Shown here: positions 2,930 to 52,519 of the stretch, one piece after another
How positions within the stretch are numbered: position 1 is the first letter of the stretch
Layout of the letters: the number at the start of each line of letters is the position of its first letter
Assembly: GCF_045679555.1 (NCBI RefSeq)
Contig: NC_092091.1
Location: 14,965,572-15,029,571, forward strand
DNA from: Salvelinus alpinus
Taxonomy: Eukaryota; Chordata; Actinopteri; Salmoniformes; Salmonidae
Reading direction: 5' to 3'
DNA length: 64,000 bases
Notes under the pieces: model-generated
Database searches by the model: none
The model's input: the letters and a program-made list of their open reading frames with translations, nothing else
What the model was told of the DNA's origin: nothing
Made by a program: the position numbers and the translations under genes

Positions 2930-5752
2930 CCTACCTTTGGTATCTTCCAGGTATGGGCAGGGCTATCTGGCAAGGTTATGAAAGTCAGTTTGGGCCAGTG
3001 TTATCTTCTCACTATCTGGTGAGTTAGCCTTTCGTTATTTAAAGCAGCTGTCGATGTAGCTTTGTTTTTAGTTAATCACTTAATTTTGTTTTACAATGTT
3101 TTTGTATTTCGGTCTTTGGGAGCCTTGCAAGCAAATACATAACTTGCCACGACTCCTTCCACTCTACCAACACCATCTAGCCTCCAGTGCCATACTTTCA
3201 AGATTGTGGCCTCTTTCTTACACTACTATCCAACCTTCACATATCTGTTTCATGTCACTTTTGCAGCGTGTCTTTTTGAGACATATTTTTGGTGGTTCTC
3301 TGAAGAACAGTTTGACATCTTTGACACAGTCTTGTGGAGAGGTACAATAAGTGTTTATTAGGCTTGTTGCACATGACTCAGCGGTCATGACCTGCCTGTC
3401 CCACCCATGACCTGCAGTGTCACTGAATTTCATCAAATACAATGTGGTGCAACTGCATCAGTCGATCGTTGTGAACCTTGGGAGGACATTTCCCTTTCCC
3501 TAGTGATAGGCTAATGATCAACATACTGTTACAGCGTTTGCTGCCTGACATTGCAGGCCTAGCACTATCCCTCTGCACTGCAGGCATTGTCTTCCTTCCC
3601 CAAGCGACGAGGTGGCATGCAGAAATAACGCATTCCAGACTCACCTGCTGGGGTTCTCGCACGTAATTACACAGCCGTCTGCCCCACACACACGAGAGGG
3701 ACTGCTGCCGAACTAGCGGATAATTAGCTCAGTCAAAAGTTCTCTGATGAGGCTGATGCTGGGAGATTGATCTTCACGGTTAGTTGACTTTCTCCGGCTC
3801 ATGCCGCTGCAGCCTTCCTCCCCAAACAATTAGCATCCGATTGAGGGAGATGTCGGCGGTGAGAAGCCCACTGTTTCTGCATGGACTATGTGCTGCTCTG
3901 ACATACAGTCCTGGAGAAAATAATTATTTTTGCCATGTTCAGCCATTAAAGTAAACATACAAGATCAATGTCAAAGTTTATTATAACACTTATGGTTTTG
4001 TAAGGCAATTATCAAGAAAATTTGCATTTAGGCTATTTGATAGCATTGGACAGAAACTTCTAATCTAGACCATGGTTGTACTATCATGTATTAGATGAAG
4101 GTGGCAGTAGACATGTGATTTGACCTCTTATATGCGGCCCCTTGGTAAACGTAATTAGAAATTAAATGATCAAGCAGCAGACGTTTGCCATGCCATAGCT
4201 CCACCTTGTGGTAGTCTCTGTATGTCTGTTTCATTTCATCAAACACAAAATCCATACAACACAGAAAATCAGTGATTCAATAACATTTTTTTTTATTTTC
4301 AGTGTTTTATAAAAATACTGGACTTTGCCAGCATCTACTCCATTGGCTATAATGTGGTTTTCCCAGAGAATAAGACTAGTAAAGTCTATTTATAGAACGT
4401 CCATATGAAACTGTATTTTGGGATGAAGAAAAAAATAATTCTACCCACTGCTCCCCAGATCCTCCCAACTGAATAAAATGCCATGGATTCTATTCCCACC
4501 TTTAAGATTAGTGCCTCTGGTAAAAAAATAAAAAATAAAATATGCAAAGAGGGCCTCTACAGCTGGCTCTTAGTGAGCCATTAGTATCTCTTACGATTCT
4601 TTCTATATAAAGTAATGCATATACATTTCTCCTTTACAATAAATTACTACAGGCACAGTCACCCATGGTCATGGTCCCTGTAACAGTCAAAACTATTGTG
4701 TACGAAGACAACGTTTTGCAGGTTGTTATTCACCGATCACACACACACACACACCACAAAAGGCAACAAAAAATACATTTTTTTTTTTAAATTTATGAAA
4801 ATCTGGGCAGCTGATTTTTGGTTGTGTGTGAATGATGCACTTTCAGCTTTTTAAACACTGAAAGCATCTGATGCATACAAGTATAAAGATTTATATAAAT
4901 ATGTACAAAAAAAACAAACACCAATTCCGGTAAAAACATTCTTGTTTTTAAAAACACATTAATGCCAAGAGAAGCTTTTCCATAAACTTCGATAACTTAA
5001 GAAACCGTAAAAAATTTTGCTCAAATTAATAACAAAAAAACGTTCAATCAATACAGTATATTTTTTCCCCCTGGTTGAGTCTGTTGTAGCCTAGACTTGC
5101 ACAGGTTGTAGCACCAGCAAATATTTAATATGCACCATAGTGCTGCCATGAATCACCCCTGCAGTATAAATAGCAAGAAAGTGAACACGCAGTACCAATA
5201 ATACATGAAAACAGAATAAATTAGTGTCAGGCCTTGTGCAGGTATTTACAGGGTTAAATCCAGGGTTGCTGTAGAGAGTAGATTGGAGTGAGAATCATGA
5301 TGGCAGTGAAGGTTGCAGCAGTCTTGCAGAACATTACAAGACAGACTCATCTCCGGCACATTCATCACATTAGACCAGTGATTTTCACAAGTCGGTCCTT
5401 AGACGCCGTATGAAGGTTTTTGCAGCCGCCAACCCAATTGCTTGAGTTTAGTTGCATAGCTCATAGATTCATTTGAATATACTGCAAGCTACAGTATTTA
5501 GAATGGAATAGATTAAAATGGAGCATACGCAGCGTGGAGTCATACCATTTACCCATGAGCAGCTCAGTTAACATAATCAAGACACAAGGTGGAATGAAAA
5601 CCTGCAACAAGAAACCGTTGGGCTGCTCCTCCACTACAGAGGAGACAGTAAACAATGATGGGTGTGAGGAATACCAGGGCTGCTGTGGAATATCAAGTAA
5701 ACAGAGTTAAGGAAGGACTCCCCCTAGAGGTGAGGGGGTTGCATGACCAGAT
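2930..5752 (-). other. brd1: brd1 3' flank and probable 3' UTR
   Basis: This lies immediately downstream of the brd1 stop codon on the minus strand. AT-rich, largely unique sequence continues to about 3900 and would fit a long 3' untranslated region. Minus-strand AATAAA candidates (TTTATT on plus) occur near 4290 and near 3978, but none can be proved to be the cleavage signal. A short (CA)n tract lies at 4739-4757. From about 3000 to 3900 I see no recognisable feature. Confidence 0.4.
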
Positions 5753-11700: not shown

Positions 11701-14700
11701 AATGACCACTGAGAGGAAGGATTTGGTGCCCAGCAGCGGGCAGCCGAGCTGATGCTCAGCTGTCCTTGGGGGCTTCTGCGGGCTGGCATTCTTGGACTTG
11801 CGAAAGAGCACATTGGTCCGCCTGTTGCCCGTGCTAGAGGGCTCTGGGAGCGTGGAGGTGGCCCCAACACTAAGGTGACTGTCGGAGACCAGCGGGTTAG
11901 AGATGTGCCCGTTGAGGGTATCCCGGGGTACTGAGGTAGCGGTCTTGACACCGTTGCACTTGAAAGTCTTCTGGCTCTTGATGGGCTTGAGCATGGGAGG
12001 TTCTGAATGACTGTCTGAGTTGAGAAGTGGCGGCGACGAGTTCAACGGCTCTAGTTTCGGTGGGAGCAAAGACTCCCCTTCTATACAACCAAGACAGAAT
12101 CACAGTAGGAAATGAAAACATCCTGACATGTAGAACAAGCAAGCCTTAGCTAATAGCCTACAGTTCATCAAATGAGACATCAAAGCAAGGAGAAAGCATT
12201 ATTGAACCAATTCTTTGCTTTTAGACCACCTGGTACATACCCTCTTCCTGTGTGCTGTGTCGAGTGGGGGGCAGTGGTTTCTCCTCAGTCTCTGCTGGTT
12301 TCGGTTCAGAGGGGGCGGCAGCGGGGTGTCGCGTCTTTAGGTATATCTCGCTGCGAACATCTGTGATGGTCTTTTTGAGCAGCTTCAGTCGCTTGCTGCG
12401 AGACGGACTGGACTTCATGGCACTGCTCATATCCAGCTTCTCCAGCAGCTCTTTCAGTTGCCCTTCCAAAGACATGTGCTGCCGGTTGGCTGGGTTTAGT
12501 ATCTGGTCCACTGCAAGATACACAAACAACAACTTGATTGGCTGAGCTCAGTTGTGGCCCCATTCCAAAATGCTATAGTACCATAAATCAATAGTTGGAT
12601 TCAGCAAAGGGTATTTAGTTGATTTGGCTGTGGACCGATTAATATAGAAGTAAACATATGTAGACCATGTTCTTACCATCGTCCCAGGAGAAAGGGGAAG
12701 GAGCCTCCACCTTGGGCTGCTCAGGAAGGTGCATCCCGCTGGCAAAGTCAAAGCCGATTCGCTCAGCCTCCCGACGAGTCTTCCTGAGGATGGCCCCGCC
12801 TCGGTCTTGCAGACGCAGACCGGCCTTGTAGAAGAACGTGTCCTTGGCGTTGTACTTCATGCAGTTGAATATGATCTGATCGAAGTCAGCCTCAAACTCC
12901 ACCAGGCTCTTGTAGCCGTGGGCATCAATGCGCTTCCTCATGGTGGAGAAGTCCATTGGCTTCTTGATGTGGTCCAAGTAGTCAGGCACCTGAAAGGGAT
13001 GGGGAGATGGCAAACAAAACATGATGCTGATAGAAAGGGTACCCAAAGAATGAATTAGAACCATATGGTACCATTTGTTTTTAATCTGTGGAAGTAACAT
13101 TCTATTGTGGGGTGTGGGGGACCTTACCTCATTAACACTGACAGGCTGGGCAAAGATCTTGGCTGGGTCCTTCTCCTGAAGCTGGTCCAGTACGGCTCGA
13201 AGTAGAATATTTAAAGGTGTGAGCTGTACCTCTAGAACAGACTGTTGGAGCTTCATCTGAAAGGGGACAGGACAGAACACAAAGCTGTAGCAGTATACTA
13301 ATATTTACTAAGGCTTCCAACAACCAATCCTAAAGCCGTTTCAACAACAAGCTAGGTTTCCATCCAATTGGCGACAGATTTTCATGCAAATATTCTAAAA
13401 TATGCATAAAGAAAATATGCGCATTTTCCCACCAGTGGTGTGTTTTCACCAAACGGACTCGTTGAGGATAACAATCAGCGTGTGATGTAGTGCACTTTTT
13501 TTTTTTACATTTTCACAAAGTTTTCATGTACCAAATAAAAATCTAAAGTTCGTGTTTCCATCGCATTTCACTCTACCGATAGTTTTGTCACAAAAACTGT
13601 TGCGTTATATAGCAAATGTGCCTTCTCTGGTCTTGGAACATGCGCTCTAGCCAAGACCTCACCAATACAGTGCAGGAAGGCTGTGCAGGTAGGCTATGCA
13701 TAAAGAATGCATACATAATGAGATTCGTATGGATATGAGCGAGAATATTTTTTATTTGTCAAACAGCAGTCAACCATCGATCATCATGTCACCAGAATCA
13801 GACCGTCAATATTTATTGGAAAGTAGCATCAAGACCACTGTGCACTTTCACCACCCTGTGAATTTCATCATAACTTATTTCATCTGTAGCCTAATAAACC
13901 GCATGCTTTCCCGAGTTGTAGTGGGGGGGACCACACACACCATATCATCTTTATCATCTTACTTCGATATGGTGGTTTTTATATCAATATTTGTGCATAA
14001 AAAGGCATTTCCATCACCATTTCTCATAATTAATTTTCCAGACACAAAAAGATCCTACCATGTCGAACAAAAAAAATGATATTTCGGTATTTCTAAAATT
14101 GTACCGAAACGTCCGGTTTCCATTACAGCTTTGATTGTACTCAGTATGACTCGCATAAAAACTGTAGATTCAAACATGGTTACAGATTATTTCAAAAGGA
14201 GATGAAATTCATTTTACCACATTTTATTTATAGGAGGGCTCACAACTATCCATTGATATGCTGTCACAAACGTTCTAATTTCACTACTGTGGAAAATAAC
14301 CAATTCTCTGTACCTCCTCTCTCTTTAGCTTCTCCCTCTTCCTGATCAGTTCTAGCAGTAGGCGAGCTCGCTCCAGGTCTTGGCGTAGGCGGTGCCATTC
14401 CTTTAGCTGCTCCTTCATCGCTTGATTATCCTCCACCCTGCTGTCCTGTAACATCAGAGTCCAAAAAGGCATTTTAATGTACATTCACAAGACATAAATC
14501 TCAGGTAAAGGGGGGCAGAAAATGACAAGGCACTACCTTCAATGGACACTGGTGGAGAGCCATTTTGAATATGGCTCTGACTAAAATAAACTAGGCTAAT
14601 TTGAATTACATCTCTTCTCTTTTTTGTAGTATATATTGAAATGAATGGCCCATCTCAATTTATATGTGTAATATTATGTAGTGTCATGTATATTATGCAT

Positions 14701-16576
14701 TTTATTTGTTGTGTTTTGTTTCCTCTTTGGACCCTAATAAAACACCATTATAATACCAAAACGTTTGATAAAACGGTGCAAACACAGGAAACTGCTCCAT
14801 ATTTATCAAATCAACTATTAGCCTGCTTTATTTTGATTTCCGAGTTTGGGAGAAAGGTTTTAAAACACAAGAAAAGTAATTTTTAAAGCAGACACGATTC
14901 TCTATCTCGAGGATTTGGATACCATGAAAGTTACTGAACAATTAAACTGACCACTGGACTGACCAGCGGCTCTGGTTTGGGGACCTGGGTGTTAGCCTGT
15001 AGCCGCCTGATCAGCGGGACGCCCTTCCTTGACTGTCTCTTCAGCATCCAGTAGCTCAGGACCCGCTCCACAAACACCTTCTTCTTCTGGACAGACACTT
15101 GATTGAGGATTGTGTCAAAACTGGGGGGGGCATATGTTAGCATTGGTCATTTAGGAAAATATTTAGAAACATTTGATTGGTAGACAAATGAAGTAAAAAA
15201 TTATATGCCTACCTGCTGGGGGTTATACTAGGCCCAGGTGCAGCAGGAGCCTCTTCCTCTACCTCAGGGACCACCACTATTATCTTACTCTTCTTCAGCC
15301 ACCCTTTTAACCTCCTCCTCCCTCTTTTGTCACCCCTCTTGTGACAGACACCGTTTTTAGCGTGGCCTTCCTCGTAGATGGCAAGGGGTCTCCGGGTGCA
15401 CCCTTTAGGAGTGTGAGCGCAGCAGAAGGCTGTCTTCTTCACAGAGAAAGTGGGCGAACCGGTCTCTGTGAATTCCTTGACAGGCTCCATTTTCATGTAG
15501 AGGCCGGCCTTTTGGGCACAGCTGACATGAAAGGCTGTGTAACAGTTAACCTTGTGGCACTGGATGCAGGCCCCGGCACCCTTCTCCTTGCAGAGGTAGC
15601 AGGTGAGCTTCCAGCGGGCGGGCGGAATATTGCTGACACCGTCGATGGGCTCGATGAAGACCGTGTCAGAGAAGCCCACCTCTGGCACCCACAGGGCACA
15701 CACCACGTGGCCCCAGCGGTCATCGTCCGTCTTTTTCAGGGCGCCGCCCTTGTTGGGGCAGAAGACACACTCAGCGGGCCGTGAGGGGCACTGGAGGCAG
15801 TGGCGACACAACCACTGGCCCTCTGGGATGTAGGGAACACCGTAGCACTCCTGGTGCACGGCCATGTTGCAGGAGTCACAGAAGAGAATAACATTGCTGT
15901 CCTGGCCGTCTCCGTCCATGCAGATGCAGCAGACAGCGTCCTCGTCGATGAGGGACTGGGGGTCACTCCGGCCCTTGCTGTCAAAGGAGGACTCCTTCTC
16001 AAAGCGATCCATAAGGAACTCAAAGAGGTTCTGGGACACCTGGCTGATACCCTCACTTTTCCTCTTGTCGTTGAGTAGATCCAGCCAGGCGTAGTCCTCC
16101 TCATCCATGTCGTATTCCACCTCCTCATCCAGCTCTTCGGCCGTCTTCTCACAATACATATAATAGATGGAGGGCCTCCGAGACACTGCGGGAAGGTTGT
16201 ACTCCACAGTGCGGAACTTGGGTTCCAAGAGGGCGCTCCCTTGCGGGTCAGCGCCATGTGTGGTGGTGAGGGCAGTGCCCCTCTTCTGCTGGTTGTCTTT
16301 GAGTCTCACCGAGCGCACCAGGACTAGCTGGGGCTTCTCGTTGTTCTCCTTGTTGCTGTTGCACTCCATGATCTCTTGGGCCGTGGGGTCATCATCGGTG
16401 ATGACATCCAACTTGTCATAGATGCTGATCCTGTGCACACGGCCATCTATCTCCAGGTCCACCATGCGCTGGGCCTGGGCGTAGGTCAAGGTCTCCTTGT
16501 TCGGTGAGGGTTTGATGGGAGAGGGGGGCCTCTGGGGCGTGGACATGCGATTATGATGCCGTACTTTTTTCTTCAT
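5753..16576 (-). CDS. brd1: bromodomain and PHD finger protein BRD1 (BRPF2), 12 coding exons
   Basis: This is a chromatin scaffold of MYST acetyltransferase complexes; family knowledge links BRPF2 mainly with HBO1/KAT7. Coding exons on the minus strand are 16576-15213, 15120-14964, 14445-14314, 13256-13128, 12989-12677, 12510-12241, 12080-11598, 11508-11382, 11174-11044, 6700-6606, 6242-6094 and 5936-5753. All junctions are GT/AG, and the phases join to 3534 nt, giving 1177 residues plus stop. Visible parts: the N-terminal BRPF/EPc-like region (about 25-170, including [10 protein letters not shown] and [13 protein letters not shown]), PHD1 (about 214-264), a zinc knuckle and extended PHD (about 265-390), the bromodomain (about 553-660, acetyl-lysine-binding Asn at about 641 in MKYNAKD) and the PWWP domain (from about 1050, [14 protein letters not shown]). 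The motifs [10 protein letters not shown] and [15 protein letters not shown], and the PRLETLL-PRKR stretch, separate BRD1 from BRPF1 and BRPF3. The start was chosen at the first ATG after a splice acceptor nine bases upstream. No frame break was seen. Whether this is the a or b paralogue is undetermined. Confidence 0.95.
6245..6270. repeat. poly-G/C tract at a brd1 splice acceptor
   Basis: A run of about 20 G on the plus strand (a C-rich polypyrimidine tract on the coding strand) lies immediately upstream of the acceptor of the penultimate coding exon (6242). It probably serves as an unusually C-only pyrimidine tract and would be prone to length change. Confidence 0.7.
7191..8767 (+). mobile_element. 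Tc1-like transposon in a brd1 intron
   Basis: The element begins CACTGCTCAAAAAAATAAAG and ends with the inverse (TTTATTTTTTTGAGCAGTG). It is flanked by TA on both sides (7189-7190 and 8768-8769), the normal Tc1/mariner target duplication. Its 1577-bp length and single internal transposase frame fit the family. It lies in the 4.3-kb intron between the exon ending at 11044 and the exon starting at 6700, antisense to brd1. Frameshifts in the transposase show it is not autonomous. Confidence 0.93.
7488..8511 (+). pseudogene. Tc1 transposase pseudogene
   Basis: The frame opens with [20 protein letters not shown] and an HTH-like region rich in Arg (about residues 1-110), followed by the first catalytic Asp in LFTDESRF. 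It then breaks near 7965, resumes in a second frame with QDNARPH (second Asp), and breaks again near 8290 within the WP-RSPDLNP block. The third frame carries PIEHIWD with the last acidic residue and ends at 8511 (TGA). At least two frameshifts therefore inactivate it. All three acidic catalytic residues are still encoded. There are no host-gene features. Confidence 0.88.
9194..10340 (+). pseudogene. decayed Tc1 transposase, split by a SINE
   Basis: Fragments in several plus-strand frames carry recognisable Tc1 pieces: MARTAQISK near the start, [20 protein letters not shown] followed by LWSDES (first catalytic Asp) after the SINE, then QQDNDTT-like and NPIEMVWD-like blocks near 10090-10220. 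Stops and frameshifts are frequent. The gene is dead. It serves only to identify and orient the element. Confidence 0.8.
9536..9747 (-). repeat. salmonid-type SINE inserted in the Tc1 element
   Basis: Read on the minus strand, a tRNA-like head (GGCTCCCCGGTGGCACAGCA, then a B-box-like GGTTCGATTCC) is followed by a conserved body and the tail AACTGACTTGCCTAGTTAAA. The same tail ends the repeats at 20530, 20698 and 34180. The insertion cuts the transposase reading region, so the SINE arrived after the Tc1 element. Confidence 0.8.
10542..11043 (-). other. remaining unique sequence of a brd1 intron
   Basis: This is the intron sequence between the Tc1 right end and the brd1 exon at 11044-11174. 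It contains no open frame or repeat that I can name. Confidence 0.5.
13340..14135. repeat. probable old DNA-transposon remnant in a brd1 intron
   Basis: The segment in the intron between exons 14445-14314 and 13256-13128 starts with GCTAGGTTTCCATCCAATTG. Similar text (CCGGTTTCCATTACAGC) recurs near 14110. That, together with the AT-rich interior, suggests a dispersed repeat, but clear inverted ends and target duplications were not seen. The family is uncertain. Confidence 0.35.
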
Positions 16577-16585
16577 CTTGAAGAG
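15213..16585 (-). other. brd1: brd1 large first coding exon
   Basis: The exon begins after the acceptor ...GGTTCTTTAG at 16586, has nine untranslated bases, then the ATG at 16576. It encodes about 454 residues, covering the BRPF N-terminus and both PHD fingers. Cysteine/histidine spacing in [20 protein letters not shown] and the [17 protein letters not shown] block matches a C4HC3 PHD. The extended PHD includes [25 protein letters not shown] and [14 protein letters not shown]. The donor is AG|GTAGGC at 15213/15212. Confidence 0.9.
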
Positions 16586-29417: not shown

Positions 29418-29560
29418 TGTTAGAGAACCAGTGATGGCTAGTTACGGTTAGGGTTAGAGAACCAATGATGGCTAGTTAGGGTTAGAGAACCAGTGATGGC
29501 TAGTTAGGGTTAGAGAACCAGTGATCCCTTTAGTTAGGGTTAGAGAAGCAGTGAGGTATG
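29418..29560. repeat. short minisatellite, ~28-bp unit
   Basis: Five imperfect copies begin TTAGAGAACCAGTGATGGCT, at 29419, 29454, 29482, 29510 and 29540. Spacing is 35, 28, 28 and 30 bases, so single units vary in length. The last copies diverge. Confidence 0.85.
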
Positions 29561-29602
29561 GGTTTTTTGGTTAGTGCACCATTTGTAGACTACATTGATG
29601 GA

Positions 29603-30173
29603 CATTTCTACTGGGTCTTGCAGGGTTTGGGTCCACCCTCTCTCTTGTTCATTACATTTCTACTGGGTCTTGCAGGGTTTGGGTCCACCCTCTCTCTTGT
29701 TCATTACATTTCTACTGGGTCTTGCAGGGTTTGGGTCCACCTTCTCTCTTGTTCATTACATTTCTACTGGGTCTTGCAGGGTTTGAGTCCACCTTCTCTC
29801 TTGTTCATTACATTTCTACTGGGTCTTGCAGGGTTTGGGTCCACCCTCTCTCTTGTTCATTACATTTCTACTGGGTCTTGCAGGGTTTGGGTCCACCTTC
29901 TCTCTTGTTCATTACATTTCTACTGGGTCTTGCAGGGTTTGGGTCCACCTTCTCTCTTGTTCATTACATTTCTACTGGGTCTTGCAGGGTTTGGGTCCAC
30001 CCTCTCTCTTGTTCATTACATTTCTACTGGGTCTTGCAGGGTTTGGGTCCACCTTCTCTCTTGTTCATTACATTTCTACTGGGTCTTGCAGGGTTTGGGT
30101 CCACCTTCTCTCTTGTTCATTACATTTCTACTGGGTCTTGCAGGGTTTGGGTCCACCCTCTCTCTTGTTCATT
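29603..30173. repeat. 52-bp minisatellite, 11 copies, with 156-bp higher-order unit
   Basis: Eleven tandem copies of a 52-bp unit start CATTTCTACTGGGTCTTGCA and end near CTTGTTCATTA. Copies differ almost only at one C/T position in CCAC(C/T)CTCTC. Their order is C,C,T,T,C,T,T,C,T,T,C, so three units form a repeated 156-bp block. Because 156 is divisible by three, long open frames arise across the array. They are not evidence of a gene. Confidence 0.97.
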
Positions 30174-30893
30174 CAACTTCTCCTTGCTTATACACATGAA
30201 CAGAACAAGGATAGGTCCAAAGTAAACATGACTAAAAGGATCCTAGAATCCCATGTTCAATGTCAACGTGTTGAGATGATGACATACCGACGAGGCAAAT
30301 CACAAGCCTAGTGATGACGGGTAGAGACCAGTTTTTATTGATAGAGATTGACTCAAGGCTGTGGCCTCTTACACAGCTTGGAAACCGAAATCCAGGTTGG
30401 GTGTATTACTCATTGATGCTAAAACATCACTGCACTGAAGGCTGAGGATGACTCACAGTTTCCAGCCTGTTTCCAAAACAGAGCATAAAGCAAAACAATG
30501 ATGAGATCACCTCTCTTTGACCATGCTTTTAAGGTCAATACACTTCTGTTTTATGCCCATTGAACCTTCTCCTTAGACTTTGCAACACACACACACAAAC
30601 ACACGTATCACAAACAGCCTGATATACTGTATCTGCTGGACAGTGACTGTTGGTGGAACATGACAGAGAAGATGCTGGCTCTACTGATCTCAAGAAATGA
30701 GGGAGAATGGTAGTCACCTGCTCAGGGTGACACCGCACTTTTTATACCCACATGGTGCCTCCTAATGCCACAGAAATAAACACTAGCATCAGCTCTGGCT
30801 GTATTCCTATTCATGAAATCTAACCATGGATATAAATCCAGATTAGGAACAGAGTGCTGGAGAGAACACAGAATTATCATGAGTCACTGGAAA
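30174..30893. other. intergenic, unassigned
   Basis: No recognised gene or repeat. A short AC-rich stretch lies at 30588-30606. Confidence 0.4.
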
Positions 30894-36029: not shown

Positions 36030-38646
<2,617 letters not shown>

Positions 38647-47272: not shown

Positions 47273-48876
<1,604 letters not shown>

Positions 48877-48878
48877 TA

Positions 48879-49095
48879 TATGTCCTTAGAAGCTGTGTGT
48901 ATATAAAATCACTGCAACCTTAGATGGCTGCAGCAGACCAGTTTGAGGCATTATAGATGTCATTGGCACCAGTGGCACCGTAGGATACGGAGCTTCCCAA
49001 AGTCAGGGAGCGTGGTCGACAAACGGATTGGGAAGTAGGTCCCAAAGGGATCTTCCTAGCGTTGGAGGTGAGCAGTCATTACTCGTGTGAGACAC
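48879..49095. other. short unassigned spacer
   Basis: No feature was recognised between the Tc1 right end and the hAT transposase remnant. Confidence 0.4.
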
Positions 49096-51620
49096 TTACT
49101 GATTCTGTTTTCTGTTAGAAACATTCACAGCCAAGGGAAGGAGGCAAGGTTCACTTTTGAAAGACTCGCTCTCAGTTAAAAAATATTTCCTCCGAATCCA
49201 CTGATTCGGGTCACTCATCTGTAGAATGTTTTTGTATTTCCCCTGCATGCTTGCTTTCCGTTTCCCAAATTTGTCTGTTACATAGACAATGAGACACATT
49301 TTATTTTCATTACACAGACAGACAGTTCCTCTCTCAATGTGAAAAATCTTTAAAACACTCCCAACCGATAACCACCAAACCTCGGTGTGAAATAGAACAT
49401 TGTCATGCTCTGACCCATATCTCCAGTGGCGACCCGTCATTCAGGGCAGGTGGGACATTTTTTTGGGGGGGCTTACTGGTTTTGAATTTTATTTTGACAT
49501 TAATACGTGTCACATATCAGTTTACAAACAATGTAAACATGTATATTTTGAAATCATTGAGTTAATAAAGCTGCATACAGCTCAGTGTTCTGTCACTCGT
49601 GGGAGCAGTACTGTACGTCACCGCCAAGTCTAAGGGTAGAGCTCGAAATATCAAGCCCCTTGGATGCTGCCATAGAGTTACATTAGAAGTGCCCATCCAA
49701 GAAGACTCAAGGTCATTGGCCACAGACAAAATGACGTCAAATCACGTTATATGTACAGTAGCTTTGATTGGACTGAATCTTAGCTAGCGGTCATCATGAT
49801 GAATCAAGTCGACAATCTACTGGCAAATCCTCTTTAATCCTTGTCAAATGAAGAGAAATAATGAAGAGAAATTATAGATAAAACGTATCGGTGCTCATCG
49901 GCCATTGGACATAAACATTACACAACAAGTTGGAAATCGCAAATTCAACAATGAGTGGTTTGGAAGGAATCAGTGACAGTGGCTAACTGCAAGCATTGCA
50001 AAGCAATCACTAGCCTGCTATTCAGTGGAGTGGCTGTGTGGTCCCAAATCTGGGATTAAGTGTCTCTTTTCCAAGTTTAAAATGATAAACATTCAACATT
50101 GGCCATGCTGTCAATGAAGCATGATTTGTGCCACTCTCAAAACAACTGTTAACTCGGAACTGCAAAAACATGACTTCAGTGAGTTCAAGGCAATCCGGAA
50201 AAAACGAGCTCCGACTGGGAAATACGTTTTGAACGGTCATCCAACTCGGAAATGTAAGTCGGGAACTCTGGCCTCTTTGTAGAGCTATGACCTGAAGATC
50301 AATGACATCATCATGATTCAACCTTGTTTTTTTCAGAGTTCCCAGTTGTCTTGAAAGCACCATAAATCCAGAGAAGGCTAGACTTTGATGGCAAAATTTG
50401 CCCACGAAGGACCGCCGTGCCACCTTCCTGTTCAAGTGAGCGCAGCACAACAAGGTGAGTCCAGAAATGTATTGTATGCTGCTGCATAAATTATGTAATA
50501 TACCAGGGAGATATGTATACTGTAGCTAAGAAAGTAATACTAAGTGTATGTTGTGTAGTAAGCTGTTAGTAGCCCATGTGCCTCACCATAATATTTTAAT
50601 CTGTTTTCACCTCTTAATTTTGCCTACTGTTCTGACTTGGTGGTGCACATGTAGCCTATAACCTGTTTTAGAGAAATGTAATCATAACATTTTGAAAGAG
50701 CTTTCATTGTCTGCTTATATGCCCCATTTATTTAGCCTACAGTTCTGACTTGGTGTACATGGAGAACACAGTAAGAACGGCCCATGTTCTGAATTCTGTC
50801 ACTGTACATTTCAAAAGTGCTAAACAAATAGTTATATTGACTACGTCCGTCCTAGCTCGCTCAATAATGTCTTAATCGAAATTACTCTTGTCGTCCACAT
50901 ATTCCATAATTTGTCCATCTCAATTGTCAGTAGAAACCACATTTGTTTAAGCACGTCAACCATATCAGCTATGTTTTTTTAAAGGCAGTAAATGAGGCTG
51001 AATGAACTGTTTCGCTGCCAGACAAGGCTCCGCTGATAGGCAGGTGTAGCAGTGGTAAGGTGTTGGGACTGCTGACTCTGCTGTTGGGACAGCTTTATGT
51101 AGACCCTAACAGTTTGTGGGCACCATTTGTCACCATTATAATTAATGTATTGTTTAGTGTTGTGTTGTGTAGTGGCTTTGCTGGCATGCATCCCACTTTT
51201 ATTATTTTTTTGCCCCACCAAGATTTACATGTTAAAATCGCCACTGCATATCTCCACATAGTTATACAAACATGCGCACGCAATGGATGTGGTTTGATGT
51301 GGATTACAATTGAAGTTACCTGCTGCAGTATATCTCCGAGTTCTGTGCTCAGCTCTTTTGCTGGCAGTTGCTCTTGGTGTATCATACAATGCGTCCATAT
51401 GGGAGACACATTCATAATTAGAGTGCAGAGGCTTGCCTGCCGTCCCGCCATAAATGGAGCCTCTTCTGTGCAAAAGCCCACCATTCGATCCCATGGAATC
51501 TCTTTTTCTTCAATATAGCCACGCAGCACACTGAACATCCCCTGTACCGTTTCATCCTCGGGAATCGTGAGACAAAACAATATGTCCTCGTGAATAGCAT
51601 CTACTGACATGTATAGCAAA
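49096..51620 (-). pseudogene. ZBED-type hAT transposase remnant, split by an insertion
   Basis: The part at 51620-51255 reads (minus) MSVDAIHEDILFCLTIPEDE, IPWDRMVGFCTEEAPFMAGR and IWTHCMIHQEQLPAKELSTE. The part at 49415-49096 continues with GSEHDNVLFHTEVWWLSVGS. Together they are the central part of a ZBED/Charlie-like hAT transposase domain. The order is exactly that of the family once the 1.8-kb insertion and one copy of its target duplication are removed (MWRY then GSEHD). Stops and frameshifts elsewhere show an old fossil. A domesticated gene is unlikely. Confidence 0.82.
49424..51246. mobile_element. non-autonomous hAT element with perfect 8-bp duplication
   Basis: CATATCTC flanks both sides (49416-49423 and 51247-51254). 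The ends are CAGTGGCGACC and, reverse complemented, CAGTGGCGATT. Subterminal G-rich/C-rich runs (TTTTTTTGGGGGGG at left, TTTTTTTGCCCCACC at right) resemble those of the 34246 MITE. The 1823-bp interior contains no transposase frame. An internal repeat with ACTCGGAA words lies at 50140-50350. Confidence 0.88.
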
Positions 51621-52011
51621 CAAAAGTCAATGCATGGGCATTTCAGCCCTCACAGCTAACGTACATTTGAAGAGCATAAGCTGGGGAGTTTTTAAGTTTC
51701 TTCTTGATTGCTAGCAGTAGAATACATTCTTTGTTCAACAGTGTTATCAGGACAAAGGTGTTGATGTGAGTTTCTGTGCCTCTGCCTCCCCACACATTGT
51801 TTTCACCATATCAATTTGGGTCCGGTAATATCTGAGTCTCTGCAATAGTGTTTGGTTTCATAGTGTAGCGGGCTTAGCCATTCACTGTGGGAATGATTCA
51901 AGTGTGACCTTTTCCCATGATCTAAGGATGCTCTCTGGTTGAATTTTATCTTTTGGATTTAAATAATTTTCATTATATTTTGAAGGTTAACCATATTACA
52001 ATGATTTTGAG

Positions 52012-52432
52012 ATAATGGTCTGGGGCTGTTTTTCATTTTTGGGGTAGGCCCCTTAGTTCCAGTGATAGGGAATCTTAACACTACAGCATACAATAATTTT
52101 CTAGTCAATTCTGTGCTTCCAACTTTGTGGCAACAGTTTGGGGAAGGCCCTTTCCTGTTTCAGCATGACACTGCCCCCGTGCACAAAGCGAGGTCCATAC
52201 AGAAAATGTTTGTCAAGATTGGTGTGGAAGAACTTGACTGGCCTGCACAGAGCCCTGACCTCAACCCCATCGAACACCTTTGTGATGAATTGTAATGCTG
52301 CCAGACCTCACTAATGCTCTTGTGGCTGAATTGAAACAAGGTCCCGCAGCAATGTTCCAATATCTAGTGGAAAGCCTTCCCAGAAGAGTGGAGGATGTTA
52401 TAGCAGCATACTTTTGGTCATATAGTGTAAGT
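52012..52432 (+). mobile_element. 5'-truncated Tc1 remnant
   Basis: The plus strand carries the last third of a Tc1 transposase: [20 protein letters not shown], then [19 protein letters not shown], followed after a deletion by the C-terminal end and the terminal repeat ACTTTTGGTCATATAGTG. It is the same family as the element at 60112-61285. The 5' terminal repeat is absent. Confidence 0.85.
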
Positions 52433-52519
52433 GTTATCAAACAATGAAACATAGCTATAGGATATAGTGCAGAAACAAAGGGTCTTCCTCAGGTGAAACG
52501 CCTTAAATAAAGTCTTCAT

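Follow-up and report, generated by a model that had tools for sequence, protein, structure and literature searches.

The window, that is, the whole stretch of 64,000 nucleotides that was analysed, comes from C6:14965572-15029571 of a 2.37-Gb genome and carries on its minus strand exons with EPL1, PHD and bromodomain at 12639-16585, which we take to belong to a BRPF-like gene, and a Pkinase-domain exon at 37459-38001, presumably of a protein kinase. Overlapping open frames built of a short repeated unit are found at 29555-30311. Further along lies the nested pair of transposons studied here, an 1823-bp element (the insert) within the remains of another transposon (the fossil), whose features are collected in the table below. 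A Tc1-like copy to the left of the fossil (47489-48882, minus strand; right end placed by eye) has a Sleeping Beauty-type HTH domain and a pair of open frames, 186 and 205 amino acids long, that overlap. Another Tc1-like fragment, recognised by eye at 52015-52440, starts where the fossil match ends.

Features of the nested elements, in positions of the window
Feature	Position	Strand	Basis or remark
Fossil, last recognisable piece, beyond a deletion of ~250-285 bp	48988..49019	-	matches to L046, L035, L045
Fossil Buster-like hAT, part past the join in coding order	49020..49423	-	relatives' alignment, L075 match
Target-site duplication, left copy (CATATCTC)	49416..49423	.	sequence; single copy (as GAGATATG) in 11/11 aligned relatives
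Younger non-autonomous hAT element (insert), 1823 bp; family consensus 2023 bp	49424..51246	+	genome copies, consensus alignment
Insert terminal inverted repeat CAGTGGCGA	49424..49432	+	element's first 22 bases found exactly 324 times genome-wide, control 0
Dead vestige resembling start of DUF4371-type hAT transposase	49799..50030	+	family TAG stop at codon 22; 13-bp tandem duplication
Third, MITE-like repeat within the younger family	50129..50366	+	found as an insertion in certain other fossil-family copies too
Insert terminal inverted repeat, TCGCCACTG on + strand	51238..51246	-	23-base family 3' end word (consensus form) found exactly 527 times, control 0
Target-site duplication, right copy (CATATCTC)	51247..51254	.	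sequence
Fossil Buster-like hAT, upstream part in coding order	51247..52014	-	relatives' alignment, L075 match

The first-pass annotation of this DNA had reported an octamer duplication and inverted ends flanking an 1823-bp element, and all of its coordinates were confirmed exactly: the octamer CATATCTC occurs without a mismatch on both sides of the element, an exact 8-bp flank repeat having a chance of 4^-8, or about 1.5e-5 (arithmetic). The sequence TCGCCACTG is the reverse complement of CAGTGGCGA, and the inverted match of the insert ends stops past 9 bp. Terminal repeats starting with CAG are a mark of hAT elements. The insert thus shows the hAT features of an 8-bp duplication and short inverted ends that start with CAG (9 bp, both ends). 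The span 49416..51254 that had been assigned to the whole feature covers the element and its duplications, but the fossil extends beyond it, with a total reach of about 48988-52014, and has lost both of its outer ends.

The site without the insert was sought in the same genome with a query composed of the flanks minus the insert and minus one octamer. From 559 first-look DNA candidates the best 40 were scored and gave 49 rows. All 38 scored places other than the window run through the join and have no insert; nine further rows each add a second piece from one of these places, and the window itself appears as two rows. Such a query favours insert-free places, yet the window was still split in two. 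In each of 11 aligned fossil relatives a single GAGATATG stands at the site. These correspond to 10 independent insertions, as two of them, L035 and L036 (C6:36.13 and C6:36.41 Mb), are 0.9% apart and have the same target duplication, and are therefore probably one duplicated segment. The paralogous copies of the fossil, which had been named as a check, are in this way shown to lack the insertion at all the places scored.

The two halves were also said to rejoin in reading order. They do belong to one gene, which is continuous in the relatives, but the proposed junction MWRY/GSEHD is frame-shifted by one base: all 11 aligned relatives have one base more than the window right after the duplication, and copies such as L041 read LCGDMGSEHD at the join. 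At the protein level, the 619-aa open frame of the relative L075 gave one match of 115 bits over the join of the joined fossil (residues 225-432). When the insert was kept, this broke up into two matches of 84.7 and 42.7 bits; none of 200 shuffles scored above 23.5. The protein search, in which the best 150 of 3934 candidates were scored, yielded five stop-free relatives of 574 to 619 aa, which align from residue 3 to residues 187-197 and cross the join at residue 118; in most rows listed the DNA relatives of the fossil are broken by stops.

A genome search with the insert sequence, likewise named beforehand as a check, found it elsewhere in great number, with 7163 first-look candidates, the best 40 of which gave 71 matching pieces including the window. 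Twenty further copies were fetched; L016, whose ends were unclear, was dropped, and the other 19 were aligned with the window to a consensus of 2023 bp. The window insert is a decayed copy, 4.8% from this 20-copy consensus, and K2P distances to the consensus range from 0.048 (window) to 0.138, values that are biased by the choice of copies for their likeness to the window. The reversed end words, used as controls, had no exact match for either the 5' or the 3' word.

Flanks were compared over 8 bp in 21 insert copies (the window and the 20 fetched). Agreement was complete in four of them (window, L011, L015 and L018), 6/8 in one and 5/8 in two; the other 14, many of them with decayed ends, did not exceed 4/8. 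In five insert copies of 520 to 2896 bp, chosen because both of their end words are exact, the agreement was 8/8 in two cases, 7/8 in two and 0/8 in one. The letters of the duplication vary among insert copies, as is expected of separate insertions. The target rule of Ac is nTnnnnAn. This pattern is fitted, by eye, by one (L015) of the eight insert-family duplications with 7/8 or better agreement, and none of the eight is centred on TA, so that both the Ac rule and the Buster rule fail to describe them.

Within the insert, the stretch from 50129 to 50366 resembles an insertion of about 250 bp in the fossil-family copies L041, L043, L045 and L040; L044 has a shorter piece of it, and L046, L034, L035 and L036 have none. 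The counterpart in L041 lies at about 3112-3362 in coding orientation. This third repeat has ends of about TGCAGCGTTCAAAACAACTGGGAACTC and, by eye, TAA-like flanks, and it sits at different places in the insert family and in the fossil family. Its presence in the insert-family consensus indicates that it most likely entered the insert family before the latter spread.

The insert had been described as having no transposase of its own. No usable frame is indeed present in this insert, but it retains a dead transposase-like start, which is seen in the window as a pair of matches that overlap around a 13-bp tandem duplication and has, as in the family, a TAG at codon 22. A stop occurs at this codon in 10 of the 12 fetched loci and is TAG in the seven with one stop. 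One copy, L049, preserves 71 stop-free codons that resemble a transposase start. A search of the genome with this peptide gave 4503 first-look candidates, and among the best 150 rows scored about 15 were stop-free in the match (by eye), the longest open frame being 224 aa.

A profile made from 12 vestige peptides matched residues 31-97 of the 734-aa ORF of L072 with 15.8 bits and L074 with 13.0 bits, compared with 7.0 bits for the best of 2000 shuffled sequences; none of the other eight of ten DUF4371 ORFs was among the matches listed for this profile. The loci L072, L073 and L074 seem to be members of a single family, so that the similarity of the vestige would be support from one lineage. 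The L072 ORF contains, according to Pfam, DUF4371 (77.9 bits) and the hAT dimerisation domain Dimer_Tnp_hAT (42.9 bits), both over the cut-off, and Pfam gave nothing over the cut-off in the vestige or in the other frames of the insert. Most likely, to judge from these similarities, the insert family arose from a DUF4371-related hAT by internal deletion and multiplied while already dead.

No autonomous relative with the same ends, such as the first-pass annotation had envisaged, was found among the end-word pairs fetched and the vestige-peptide rows scored. Among the first 100 listed of the 324 and of the 527 exact end words, six same-strand 5'/3' pairs less than 3 kb apart were picked by eye. 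In the five of these pairs that were retrieved, no open frame listed exceeds 140 aa, and no transposase of this kind was seen by eye. The long insert copies among these pairs represent the same element plus other sequence. Insert-like ends were not seen at ten DUF4371 loci taken from the 150 scored matches, where about 1.5 kb of flank was inspected and the ends may lie outside it.

The fossil family differs in its ends and targets. Six copies cut at the ends measure 1913 to 2305 bp and have the ends CAGCGGTTCCCAAACT and AGTTTGGGAACCCCTG, the family form being CAGCGGTTCCC, and the 8-bp duplications are mostly centred on TA. Of 12 rows, eight had two recognisable ends. The flanks agree at 8/8 in L035 and L036, counted as one duplicated segment, 7/8 in L034 and 6/8 in L041 and L046; lower values were found for L043 (3/8) and for L039 and L045 (1/8; the same place, where the 5' end was mispicked). 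By eye, 11 of 14 flanks from eight independent insertions are TA-centred, in agreement with the Buster target rule nnnTAnnn (PMC3517528).

An 8-bp duplication and inverted ends, as in hAT elements, are thus present in the fossil family too. Pfam found no hAT domain over the cut-off in the fossil, in the peptides of its relatives or in L075, and gave just a weak zinc finger below the cut-off; NCBIfam gave nothing over the cut-off, and the solved structures gave no match for the fossil-family proteins. The peptide L032 beat the best shuffle (8.1 bits) against nine of the ten DUF4371 hAT ORFs; neither the peptide L041 nor the joined peptide of the window (6.6 versus 6.7 bits) beat the shuffles against these ORFs. 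The catalytic region of the fossil family does resemble the DUF4371 ORFs. The fossil was filed as hAT-like on account of its ends, its duplications and the similarity of L032 to the DUF4371 ORFs, Pfam giving no hAT domain. Its earlier designation as ZBED-type appears fair, if indirect, as it rests on the target rule and one related open frame; ZBED5 is grouped with the Buster elements (PMC3606216). It seems that two kinds of hAT are involved, Buster-type for the fossil and DUF4371-related for the insert.

It is very probable that a non-autonomous hAT, mobilised in trans, inserted into a different hAT, a degenerate copy of Buster-like type. A transposase made elsewhere would have mobilised the element, which would have been pasted into the degenerate Buster-like copy, and filling in of a staggered 8-bp cut at the target would have produced the duplication of CATATCTC. 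The mover may have been an enzyme of the DUF4371 kind, and the fossil was presumably already dead when it was struck. Behind this reading stand the observed anatomy of the locus, the uninterrupted site in the relatives, the large insert family with no usable transposase frame in the insert, and two distinct sets of ends and target preferences in the insert and fossil families. It is tempting to speculate further that the insert family, which numbers hundreds to thousands of copies with the same dead start (10 of 12 loci translated), chose its targets outside the Ac and Buster rules and owes its whole amplification to a DUF4371-type enzyme acting in trans, relatives of which, with long open frames, remain in the genome; as a whole this proposal is tentative, and we consider it rather unlikely.

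Had the inner and outer parts been one composite element moving together, with the octamer repeated by chance, the 240-bp stretch at 50129-50366 that the insert has in common with the fossil-family copies L041, L043, L045 and L040 would find a ready place. However, what is shared is a separate repeat, which lies at another position in the fossil family and is missing from L046, L034, L035 and L036; the insert is missing at the join in 38/38 scored non-window places, and it is bounded by ends of its own and, in several copies, by duplications of its own. The composite element was rejected because of the uninterrupted sites elsewhere and the separate nature of this repeat, and its probability is negligible. 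Alternatively, the fossil might, when it was struck, have been a domesticated hAT transposase acting as a host gene. ZBED and Buster-type genes are described as repeatedly domesticated in vertebrates (PMC3606216), and this genome does contain relatives whose open frames measure 574 to 619 aa; but 559 first-look DNA candidates, inverted ends and target duplications are the marks of mobile copies, and stops break the DNA relatives in most rows listed, which leaves domestication highly improbable.

A further question is whether the transposase of the fossil's own Buster-like family moved the insert, as 8-bp duplications and ends starting with CAG are common to both families. Beyond CAG, however, the ends diverge (CAGTGGCGACCC in the insert, CAGCGGTTCCCA in the fossil), the eye counts of TA-centred sites stand at 0/8 insert duplications (7/8 or better) versus 11/14 fossil flanks, and the vestige in the insert resembles another kind of transposase, so that a mover from the fossil's family is improbable, if somewhat less so than domestication.

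The nesting itself, and not the intact duplication, places the insert later than the fossil, and for these two insertions the order proposed in the first-pass annotation, an older fossil followed by a younger insert, was borne out. Its use of the intact duplication to date the insertion was rejected, as 16 sites remain unchanged at 4.8% divergence with a probability of 0.46; the intact duplication tells the mechanism, not the date. The distances agree with the order (insert 0.048, fossil 0.097). The ranges of the families overlap (0.048-0.138 for the insert, 0.058-0.116 for the fossil), which means that the insertions are ordered and the families are not, and their periods of activity may have overlapped. 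For the split of the Salmoninae genera, a similarity of 94-95% and 14-23 million years are given in PMC2198921. On the salmonid scale, 4.8% from the consensus would amount to some tens of millions of years if the host is a salmonid, and no age is claimed here. For a second empty-site test in a duplicated gene region, a partner of the BRPF-like exon, 94% alike, was located at C9:47.82 Mb; an 8-kb stretch there, picked by distance alone, contained nothing resembling the window.

Among known systems, Mar, a Buster MITE family of Drosophila, is according to the account in PMC3517528 likewise a non-autonomous hAT with transposase relics and 8-bp duplications, and is said there to derive from a full-length element by internal deletion. 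Mar is itself a Buster element with TA-centred duplications (PMC3517528), whereas here TA-centred duplications number 0/8 in the insert family and the Buster-like partner is the target. The nested Tc1-like transposons of salmonids (PMC2198921, 2007) likewise place a DNA transposon within a DNA transposon in fish; the nests in that account are Tc1-like, hAT elements not being mentioned in the part concerned, and the present case is a hAT within a hAT. The fossil family is like the Buster group and ZBED5, as described in PMC3606216 and PMC3517528, in its mostly TA-centred 8-bp duplications and its related 619-aa frame in this genome; the fossil itself is a broken relic, likened to them indirectly. 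As to the DUF4371-type hAT transposases, the 71-codon vestige of the insert is like residues 31-97 of such an ORF, but the insert keeps just this start, with stops, and its ends were not seen at the 10 loci.

Nested transposons of this kind are ordinary for such genomes, and the nesting is real and well supported. The general picture is unchanged by it; the locus offers a clean worked case of transposon layering in which the empty-site test was passed, and which helps in repeat annotation and in ordering insertions at one place. It also illustrates that a 'transposase-free' family can still share a dead transposase-like start that points to the kind of mover.

The ends of the CAGTGGCG type are, we assume, Tip100-like. 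The target preference of the Tip group is described in PMC3942097 as not having been investigated. A literature search for the end words gave no match, and both the insert and the fossil families may already carry names in Repbase or Dfam. At L052 (C6:68728000-68728170) the 22-base end word was found in both orientations about 50 bp apart with further inverted sequence flanking it, and a second such short opposed end-word pair lies at C3:57035343-57035427.
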